A stretch of DNA of 64,000 nt, from the NCBI GenBank assembly GCA_031277915.1, contig JAITLL010000034.1, positions 62,001 through 126,000 on the forward strand, written 5' to 3'. This stretch comes from Acinetobacter sp. (lineage in GTDB: Bacteria; Pseudomonadota; Gammaproteobacteria; Pseudomonadales; Moraxellaceae). The position numbers and the translations under genes are program-made. Shown in pieces: positions 58,453 to 59,808 of this stretch. The notes beneath the pieces were generated by a model. It made no database searches. It had not been told where the DNA came from and saw only the letters and a program-made list of their open reading frames with translations. Every line of letters begins with the position of its first letter. Position 1 is the first letter of the stretch.

Positions 58453-58509
58453 ATGTTAAATCAATCTGTGAATTCTAACGCTTACTTTTATTTCTGGCAA
58501 TTTAGTTAG
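58453..58509 (+). CDS. Aromatic leader peptide 1 (18 aa)
   Basis: An 18-codon ORF whose peptide is MLNQSVNSNAYFYFWQFS. Six of the last eight residues are aromatic (Tyr, Phe, Tyr, Phe, Trp, Phe). GAGATAAAG precedes the ATG. It lies directly ahead of the attenuator, and such a run of regulatory codons is the hallmark of ribosome-mediated transcription attenuation of aromatic genes. All three aromatic amino acids are sampled. Confidence 0.85.
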   Translation: MLNQSVNSNAYFYFWQFS

Positions 58510-58510
58510 T

Positions 58511-58585
58511 TGCCTGAGCGTATTCGGGCACGAAAGTTGCCCATCACAGTTAATACCTGATCGGCAACCCCGATCAGGTTTTTTT
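58511..58585 (+). promoter_or_regulatory. Transcription attenuator with mutually exclusive hairpins and terminator
   Basis: Five segments alternate. 58511-58518 pairs with 58523-58530 (TGCCTGAG with TTCGGGCA, with wobbles). 58526-58530 also pairs with 58538-58542 (GGGCA with TGCCC). 58536-58546 pairs with 58558-58568 (GTTGCCCATCA, 10 of 11 pairs) as an antiterminator. The terminator is a perfect 9-bp stem, 58556-58564 with 58570-58578, followed by T7. A ribosome at the leader stop would block the first hairpin, allow the second and so permit termination. A ribosome stalled on the aromatic codons allows the first hairpin, which frees the antiterminator. Confidence 0.8.
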
Positions 58586-58618
58586 ATGCTTTATCTTTTT
58601 CAAATCGAGGAACTCAAA

Positions 58619-58711
58619 ATGAACAATATGACTTATTCATACTTTAGCAACTTTTATTGGTTTTACTTTTGCCTACCTTTGCCAACGAATAGATCCAAAA
58701 CGCTCAAATAA
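58619..58711 (+). CDS. Aromatic leader peptide 2 (30 aa)
   Basis: A 30-codon ORF with a good GAGGAA ribosome binding site six bases upstream of its ATG. Residues 6-17 are YSYFSNFYWFYF, nine aromatic of twelve: four Tyr, four Phe, one Trp. The tail is CLPLPTNRSKTLK. The stop lies 41 bases before the synthase ATG. CCTTTG at 58676-58681 inside this ORF is complementary to CAAAGG at 58738-58743, which overlaps the synthase ribosome binding site. Confidence 0.8.
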   Translation: MNNMTYSYFSNFYWFYFCLPLPTNRSKTLK

Positions 58712-58717
58712 ATGATC

Positions 58718-58738
58718 GGACTGATTCGGTTTCAGTCC
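58718..58738 (+). promoter_or_regulatory. Hairpin abutting the DAHP synthase ribosome binding site
   Basis: GGACTGA (58718-58724) pairs perfectly with TCAGTCC (58732-58738), seven-base loop. The AAAGGAAAAG ribosome binding site begins at 58739. There is no T-run, so it does not terminate. It is placed to influence translation initiation of the synthase together with leader peptide 2. Confidence 0.7.
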
Positions 58739-58752
58739 AAAGGAAAAGACCA

Positions 58753-59808
58753 ATGAATGCTTTAAATACTTTACTAACTCAAAGTAATACAAAAGAAACA
58801 CCAGTTAGTTTGCCTCTCCAGTTAAAAGCCAAATATCCGCTTGTGCAGACCTTCGCACGCCAAGTTGCAGAACACCGCCAAATTATTCAAAATATTCTTG
58901 CTGGTAAAGATCAGCGTTTAATGGTTATTACAGGACCATGTTCAATTCATGATCCAGTTGCGGTTCTTGAATACGCAGAAAAATTACAAAAACTACAAGA
59001 AAAAGTAAAAGACCAAATTTTTATAGTGATGCGTACTTATATTGAAAAGCCTCGTACAACTGTGGGGTGGAAGGGCTTTATGTATGACCCAAATCTAGAT
59101 GGTTCATCTAACCTACAATTAGGTTTAGAAAAATCACGTGAGCTTTATTTGCAAATTATTGAAAAAGGCTTGCCGATTGCCAGTGAAATTTTAAGTCCAA
59201 TGGCAACCGGTTATTTCGATGATTTATTGGCTTGGGGTGCAATAGGTGCTCGTACAAGTGAGTCTCAGATTCACCGTGAAATTTCAAGTCATATGCCATA
59301 CAGCATTGGTTTCAAGAATGGTACAGATGGTTCAATTCAGATTGCATTAGATGCGATTCAGTCAGCACAAAATGAGCATCAATTTTTAGGCATGAACCAA
59401 CAAGGCTTGCCTTCAGTGATTCAGAGTGCTGGAAATCCATTGCCACATTTGATTTTGCGTGGAGCAAATCATGGCCCTAACTATGATTTAGCTTCAATTC
59501 AGGCAATACGTGAAAAATACAAACAAAATCTTCCTGCATTAGTCATTGACTGTAGTCATGGTAACAGTGGTAAAGATCCTTTACGTCAGCCAGAGGTTTT
59601 GCAGAAAATCGTTGCTGAGCGTTTAAAAACTCAGGTAAAGGGTGTCATGATTGAAAGTCATTTGGTTGATGGTAGCCAAAAGATTTCTTGTGATATGACT
59701 TATGGACAGTCAGTAACTGATGGTTGTTTAGGGTGGGACAAAACTGAACAACTTTTGTTAGGTGTTGCTGAGCAATTAAAAGCGAGTGAATTAGCACATT
59801 CTGCTTAA
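58753..59808 (+). CDS. aroG: 3-deoxy-7-phosphoheptulonate synthase (DAHP synthase, class I)
   Basis: The first enzyme of the shikimate pathway, 351 residues, condensing PEP and erythrose-4-phosphate. Family motifs are TGPCSIHDPVAVLEYAEKL, the KPRTTVGWKG phosphate-binding loop, the ARTSESQIHRE region and IDCSHGNSGKDP with metal-binding residues. Which amino acid inhibits it cannot be read with certainty. Expression appears controlled by the dual leader just upstream. The ribosome binding site is AAGGAAAAG. The symbol could equally be aroF or aroH. Confidence 0.93.
   Translation: MNALNTLLTQSNTKETPVSLPLQLKAKYPLVQTFARQVAEHRQIIQNILAGKDQRLMVITGPCSIHDPVAVLEYAEKLQKLQEKVKDQIFIVMRTYIEKPRTTVGWKGFMYDPNLDGSSNLQLGLEKSRELYLQIIEKGLPIASEILSPMATGYFDDLLAWGAIGARTSESQIHREISSHMPYSIGFKNGTDGSIQIALDAIQSAQNEHQFLGMNQQGLPSVIQSAGNPLPHLILRGANHGPNYDLASIQAIREKYKQNLPALVIDCSHGNSGKDPLRQPEVLQKIVAERLKTQVKGVMIESHLVDGSQKISCDMTYGQSVTDGCLGWDKTEQLLLGVAEQLKASELAHSA

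Follow-up and report, generated by a model that had tools for sequence, protein, structure and literature searches.

The 64-kb stretch of DNA analysed here (hereafter the window) encodes a type I DAHP synthase of the aroFGH family, which is referred to as aroG; the AroG-specific NCBI cut-off is missed by this protein (351.2 vs 568). The synthase is 97% identical to those of A. nosocomialis and A. seifertii, from which the genome was judged to belong to the calcoaceticus-baumannii group. Upstream of the gene, a first leader ORF (L1), an intrinsic terminator, a second leader ORF (L2), a hairpin (H) and the SD of the synthase follow one another in 5' to 3' order (Table 1). No Rfam family was found at the gathering threshold in the window.

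Table 1. Features of the aroG upstream region and their positions in the window
Feature	Position	Strand	Remarks
Leader 1 (L1), MLNQSVNSNAYFYFWQFS	58453-58509	+	L1-type ORF in 151/151 distinct sequences
Antiterminator arm GTTGCC	58536-58541	+	Complementary to GGCAAC at 58563-58568 (terminator 5' arm)
Intrinsic terminator of the attenuator with T-run	58555-58585	+	
SD of L2, GAGGAA	58607-58612	+	
Leader 2 (L2), MNNMTYSYFSNFYWFYFCLPLPTNRSKTLK	58619-58711	+	30 codons
Aromatic cluster of L2, Tyr6 to Phe17	58634-58669	+	Putative stall region
P1 5' arm TTTAGC	58643-58648	+	Partner: GCTCAAA at the end of L2 (58702-58708), with a single bulged C
TTTATTGGTTTT (Tyr-Trp-Phe codons)	58653-58664	+	Predicted to form 12 bp with AAGACCAATGAA at the synthase start (58746-58757)
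P2 3' arm AGATC in the L2 tail	58691-58695	+	Alternative partner of GGTTT (58659-58663, Trp-Phe codons)
Hairpin H, GGACTGA-loop-TCAGTCC	58718-58738	+	7 bp; arms 58718-58724 and 58732-58738
SD of the synthase, AAAGGA	58739-58744	+	Touched by the 3' arm of H
Type I DAHP synthase, aroFGH family (aroG)	58753-59808	+	TIGR00034 415.8 bits, PF00793 254.8 bits

Synthase genes were searched for in 299 Moraxellaceae genomes, one per species. Of the 126 genomes of the same genus, 124 (hand count) encode the synthase type of the window, and the remaining two (G101 and G119) contain only a ~50% paralogue. Among the matches listed, all those with at least 55% synthase identity belong to Acinetobacter, and other genera of the Moraxellaceae reach only paralogue-level scores. 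With 73 extra loci from a second collection, whose genomes partly overlap with the first, the sample comprised 197 upstream regions, 151 of them distinct; the divergence of species was gauged from synthase identity.

An L1-type ORF, defined by at least four aromatics per nine codons, is present in 151/151 distinct Acinetobacter upstream sequences and contains Trp in every one, and a terminator-like hairpin with a T-run was likewise identified in 151/151. The motif GTTGCC occurs between L1 and the terminator in 150/151 sequences and GGCAAC within the terminator in 144/151. Proteobacterial transcription attenuators of the trp/pheA type consist of a leader with regulatory codons, a terminator and a complementary antiterminator arm, and operate in a single stage. 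The region shares with them a leader ORF rich in product codons, a terminator and, by motif, a competing arm, and L1 and the terminator would by their anatomy constitute a classical ribosome-mediated transcription attenuator. Unlike in these single-stage systems, a second leader follows the terminator. Furthermore, the 7-mer TGATCGG located after the L2 stop (58713-58719) repeats the terminator 5' arm at 58558-58564 and forms the complement of CCGATCA in the terminator 3' arm (58570-58576). A freed terminator arm could in principle contact H via this 7-mer, which differs between species by eye.

A second aromatic-rich leader ORF

A preliminary description of the region had proposed a second aromatic ORF with its own GAGGAA after the terminator, and this ORF was recovered as L2, located 3' of the attenuator terminator and 5' of the DAHP-synthase gene. 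Residues 6-17 (YSYFSNFYWFYF) include nine aromatics in 12 codons. Among 138 small start-to-stop ORFs of the window (15-60 aa with an SD-like motif; 76 on the plus and 62 on the minus strand, alternative starts counted separately), L2 is the only one with at least seven aromatics in 12 codons, and dinucleotide shuffles of positions 58586-58752 yielded nine aromatics in 0/5000 and seven in 2/5000 cases. No L2-like ORF was found when six regions upstream of the paralogous synthase were tested alike.

Intact L2 ORFs were defined by an SD-like motif, at least five aromatics per 12 codons and an end near the synthase start, with only the top-scoring ORF kept. By this definition, the survey for tandem aromatic ORFs before aroG in Moraxellaceae that the preliminary description had suggested identified both leaders in Acinetobacter, with L2 intact in 150 of the 151 distinct upstream sequences. 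Counted per species-level genome, 123 of the 124 with the synthase type of the window encode an intact L2; 113 of these genomes are of a hairpin type, six of an abutting type and four of an overlapping type, and in one L2 is frameshifted. The frameshift was found in Acinetobacter sp. WU_MDCI_Axc73 (L072 and L119, same genome), which retains L1, the hairpin and the SD, and whose relatives keep an intact L2; this broken L2 represents a natural test case. All 150 L2 ORFs encode both Phe and Tyr, and 141 also encode Trp. Trp is absent from L032 and eight further distinct sequences (A. baylyi motif SNVDYFYF), and a second sensor in these nine would therefore read Phe and Tyr only.

A profile search of the genome's own sequence with L2 yielded no second copy below an E-value of 1. 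Against 293 order-level genomes, five matches were obtained at E <=0.01 with a profile that is short and a first pass that is fast, so that divergent copies could escape; two of these matches belong to the window's genus (G000 and G015). The other three (G057, G384 and G567; E 6e-4 to 0.005) have no adjoining DAHP synthase by eye and were taken as chance. In the window, the L2 stop is immediately followed by ATG, which opens a 14-codon frame (58712-58756) overlapping the synthase ATG at its end. This frame was set aside as a candidate third mini-ORF (TAAATG...), as many species have TAAAAG instead.

In 1042 pairs with a divergence below 25%, drawn from 118 distinct ORFs, L2 evolves like a protein-coding sequence: its pN/pS is 0.434 in frame, vs 1.16 and 0.89 when the frame is shifted. 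Its core reads SYFSNxYWFYFSQ, and its length is 27-35 codons, or 40 or 55 codons in the overlap type. Codon usage is highly restricted: L2 uses Arg AGA in 96/99, Pro CCC in 59/60 and Leu CTC in 93/100 cases, codons that each account for ~5% in synthase genes, and the third base preceding CTC is G in 107/113 cases (22 expected). In addition, Ser AGC (90/96) and Asn AAC (67/77) each account for 17% in synthase genes, and Ser TCA is used in 83/89 cases vs 30% in synthase genes. The restricted Ser and Asn codons next to the aromatics point to a putative RNA role of those positions. Protein-like evolution combined with strong synonymous constraint thus marks L2 as a coding and cis-acting element, and the sequence comparison shows that it evolves as a conserved coding ORF with RNA-level constraint. 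The aromatic runs common to L1 and L2 would also be compatible with L2 as the remnant of an L1 duplication, or as a small peptide whose function does not lie in cis. We consider this hardly tenable, as L2 is kept intact almost throughout while its tail varies, and as the constraint acts at the codon level on otherwise rare codons.

Hairpin and junction with the synthase gene

The preliminary description was also right about a perfect 7-bp hairpin at the ribosome binding site of the synthase. A corresponding hairpin was identified in 140 of the 150 L2 sequences, 6 nt past the L2 stop in 124/140, and its stem ends 0-3 nt 5' of the SD 5-mer in 137/140 (2 nt in 100); its position is nearly fixed and its loop measures 3-11 nt. 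In divergent species, apparently compensatory versions occur (GGGCTG/CAGCCC, AGACGC/GCGTCT, GGATTG/CAATCC and GGGT/ACCC). As judged from the aligned sequences, H is conserved, with some compensatory changes. A function as plus-strand terminator was rejected, as the stem is followed by AAAGG and no T-run, and a terminator-like site was flagged on the minus strand only.

A consensus fold yielded two helices within L2, P1 and P2, and in 62 sequences they are paired in 98.4% and 92.6% of the cells, respectively, vs 97.8% for H; the P2 arm reads AGACC in many species. These consensus-fold partners account for part of the codon constraint on L2. Sliding the partners reduced pairing of H, P1 and P2 together from 96.5% to at most 50.9%. 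Five cells with double-sided changes were observed, a number reached in 0/500 shuffles, and two pairs with double-sided change, a number equalled in 87/500. The P1, P2 and H columns are highly conserved, and compensatory change is consequently visible for the hairpin only. Native L2 sequences form no more internal pairs than their recodings (13.3 vs 14.4 expected pairs, 57 ORFs), and P1 and P2 are therefore not visibly selected for stability.

The distance between the L2 stop and the synthase ATG is 41 nt in the window with the hairpin left in. With the hairpin looped out, the L2 stop lies 8 nt from the synthase SD in 96 of 140 sequences, and in the six hairpin-less sequences this distance is 6 nt in five, with the SD overlapping the stop in the sixth. 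In four divergent sequences, L2 extends over the synthase start and ends within the gene. These long L2 ORFs (L195-L198, synthases 55-58% identical) have a stop codon beginning 22 nt into the synthase gene. The last aromatic codon precedes the L2 stop by 11-17 codons in 146/150 ORFs and by 25-26 codons in the four overlap types. Due to this aromatic-free tail, a ribosome stalled on the cluster would stand clear of the synthase ribosome binding site in all designs. All junction designs would thus have in common that the synthase initiation region is reached by a ribosome finishing L2 but not by one that stalls.

This geometry resembles that of the anti-TRAP (AT) operon of Bacillus subtilis, where a leader with regulatory codons ends near the SD of its target, and where stalling reportedly occurs on a leader peptide just before rtpA. 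The entire effect of L2 could be steric, as for rtpA: the ribosome finishing L2 would cover the SD, a stall upstream would free it, the pairing of L2 with the synthase start would be incidental, and the hairpin would loop out the extra RNA and keep the SD and the L2 stop adjacent. The short stop-to-SD distances, the four overlapping L2 ORFs and the near-constant position of the hairpin despite its variable loop speak for such an arrangement. However, the base of the hairpin may melt under a ribosome at the stop, and it is left unexplained why synonymous sites far upstream in L2 are so strongly constrained, so that we regard a steric effect alone as unlikely. The short stop-to-start distances, and stops that overlap or abut the SD in divergent species, would also suit translational coupling, the main rival of opposite sign, in which completion of L2 delivers ribosomes to the synthase start and stalling lowers synthesis. 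The L2 SD is recognisable, as coupling would require, although the search itself called for one. With a sign contrary to that of L1 and to end-product logic, a stop 22 nt inside the synthase gene in the overlap type that would be awkward for re-initiation, and no need for nine aromatic codons, coupling appears distinctly improbable.

Predicted masking of the start codon

In the minimum-energy fold of the window, the helix between TTTATTGGTTTT and AAGACCAATGAA closes the start codon of the synthase. Ribosome footprints were modelled as masked RNA in two variants, in which either the flanks may pair or only downstream RNA is considered. The predicted unpaired probability of the window AUG is 0.002 with L2 empty or a ribosome at its stop, vs 0.67 and 0.89 with the A site at Trp. 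The AUG is freed by modelled A sites from Phe9 to Pro20 only; it stays closed upon a stall at Tyr6 or Tyr8 and with a ribosome in the tail or at the stop. Across 113 hairpin-type ORFs, the median unpaired probabilities are 0.022 with free L2 and 0.024 with a ribosome at the stop, and they rise to 0.307 (flanks pairing) and 0.625 (downstream RNA only) with a ribosome at Trp. The predicted AUG opening exceeds 0.05 in the right direction in 58/113 ORFs with the permissive mask and in 94/113 with downstream RNA only, and changes of this size in the wrong direction occur in 22/113 and 8/113, respectively.

Native L2 sequences close the AUG tighter than the mean of eight synonymous recodings in 92/113 ORFs when free and in 99/113 with a ribosome at the stop, the former of which is also left unexplained by a purely steric effect. 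The contrast between stall and stop lies above the mean of the recodings in 83/113 (mask) and 90/113 (downstream only). For the window, shuffles of codon order reduce the mean contrast to 0.075 vs 0.664 for the native sequence, which is matched by 5/300. Synonymous recodings equal or exceed the native contrast in 143/300 cases, and only 1/300 closes the AUG as tightly; since recoded versions of the window L2 retain a similar contrast, codon choice would mainly tighten the closed state.

The predicted opening is not specific to aromatic codons. In 107 ORFs, its median falls from 0.27 at Trp to ~0.02 from ten codons on, through the stop. Ribosomes up to 11 codons before Trp likewise open the AUG (medians 0.13-0.54), and the mean is 0.30 at aromatic vs 0.21 at other A sites. 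Furthermore, a start-codon helix of at least 9 bp is present in only 41 of the 113 distinct ORFs. In a fixed alignment, the helix is paired in 77% of cells without covariation beyond that of shuffles, and an alternative masking helix, TTCAT:ATGAA, is 93% paired and cannot covary. None of the six hairpin-less distinct sequences exhibits a predicted threefold AUG switch (0/6). The window does not stand out in its folding stability (z -1.40; 18/200 shuffles equally good). According to these models, the switch would be weak or absent in part of the species.

The preliminary description had assigned the release of the ribosome binding site to another element, a pairing of CCTTTG with CAAAGG. Both hexamers are present in the window (58676-58681 and 58738-58743), but CCTTTG occurs in only 6/150 L2 ORFs, and the minimum-energy fold of the window pairs CAAAGG with CTTTTG at 58666-58671, inside the aromatic codons; the pair was rejected as a regulatory element. 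Upon stalling, release is predicted for the start codon, but the openness of the SD does not change in a consistent direction when L2 is stalled instead of empty (twofold increase in 58 and decrease in 47 of 150). A hairpin lock of the SD was rejected on these grounds and because the stem ends ahead of the SD 5-mer in the 137 sequences mentioned above, and masking of the SD by a hairpin in the uninduced state, as in erm/cat-type systems, was not found. Moving the modelled ribosome from the stop to Trp opens the SD by more than 0.05 in 86/113 ORFs. The mean difference is 0.143, and as recoded L2 sequences give an equal one (0.137), it is not a property of the L2 codons. The lower openness of the SD in the stop position is expected if a ribosome placed there removes the 5' arm of the hairpin.

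As a further possibility, L2 could act via mRNA stability or Rho-dependent polarity instead of initiation. A translated leader 3' of the terminator would protect the RNA, and the hairpin just 5' of the gene could be taken to point in the same direction, but neither the junction geometry nor the masking of the start codon is predicted by such an effect, which we consider very improbable.

Proposed two-stage sensing and its precedents

We consider it probable, with some reservation, that the region is a two-stage sensor read by ribosomes, in which transcription attenuation at L1 is followed by translational attenuation at L2 with masking of the start codon. In the first stage, L1 and the terminator would attenuate transcription, and only read-through RNA would contain L2. 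In the second stage, the Tyr-Trp-Phe codons of L2 in the window species would form a helix with the spacer and the synthase start codon, and the latter would stay closed as long as L2 is empty or its ribosome has reached the tail or the stop. With a ribosome stalled on the aromatics from Phe9 onward, the complement would be occupied and the start codon freed. Masking and unmasking of the start codon are predictions of the folding models, and we infer stalling on uncharged tRNA, the direction of regulation and the effect at the protein level. In addition, a ribosome finishing L2 near the synthase SD (mostly 6 nt in hairpin-less sequences and 8 nt with the hairpin looped out) could sterically block initiation, and this component may be both older and shared. 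In the window species, L2 would act by unmasking; steric release probably contributes as well, or is the sole mode in divergent species.

The two-tier control suggested in the preliminary description is supported by a conserved second leader and a predicted release of the start upon an aromatic stall, but the CCTTTG:CAAAGG pair and a hairpin lock of the SD were not retained. As the Tyr-Trp-Phe sensor codons are themselves the strand predicted to seal the start codon, sensing and release would be one event. A more specific and tentative form of this proposal, to which we give a chance somewhat short of even, is that a single aromatic-tRNA signal must stall ribosomes twice, once for the polymerase to pass and once for the AUG to be unmasked, with the sensor codons serving as the sealing strand and the two-leader layout persisting in Acinetobacter through three junction designs.

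In erm systems, of which ermC is a translational attenuator, translation of a leader controls initiation of the next gene, as is proposed here. L2 likewise is a leader ORF with its own SD directly upstream of the gene, its translation being suggested by codon evolution. Unlike in drug-triggered erm systems, the regulatory codons correspond to pathway products, and they are predicted to mask the start codon and not the SD. Two leaders have also been reported for ermB (PMC8274638). The AT operon offers a precedent for double sensing: as described in PMC11255114, citing Chen & Yanofsky 2003 and 2004, uncharged tRNA-Trp controls transcription and ribosome stalling controls translation, so that tRNA charging would be read twice and in the same succession in both systems. 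In contrast to the AT operon, the first tier would be a leader peptide and not a T-box (with no Rfam match in the window), three amino acids would be read, and the target is a biosynthetic enzyme instead of a regulator.

The assertion that tandem sensing is undescribed was too broad in view of this B. subtilis anti-TRAP (rtpA) precedent (PMC11255114). With double tRNA reading known from the AT operon and two leaders from ermB, the locus is a variant and its principle not new. Among the matches listed from the openly readable literature, no description of a second leader preceding aroG or a DAHP synthase in Acinetobacter was found; the main texts of two A. baumannii RNA-interactome papers do not contain 'aroG', 'DAHP' or 'leader peptide', and the main text of a survey of terminator-based attenuators (PMC2965389) does not mention Acinetobacter, aroG or aroF. 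Double sensing thus has a precedent, and no two-leader form preceding a DAHP synthase came up in the literature searched.

If the proposed mechanism is correct, one tRNA signal would control a biosynthetic gene at two successive steps through two leader peptides, and this tandem control would multiply the dynamic range and filter the noise of imperfect termination. Hairpin, abutting and overlapping versions, spread over more than 120 species, would provide a natural set for deriving and testing the rules of translational attenuation. The arrangement would also make it worthwhile to look elsewhere for second leaders that lie between the terminator of an attenuator and the gene it controls.
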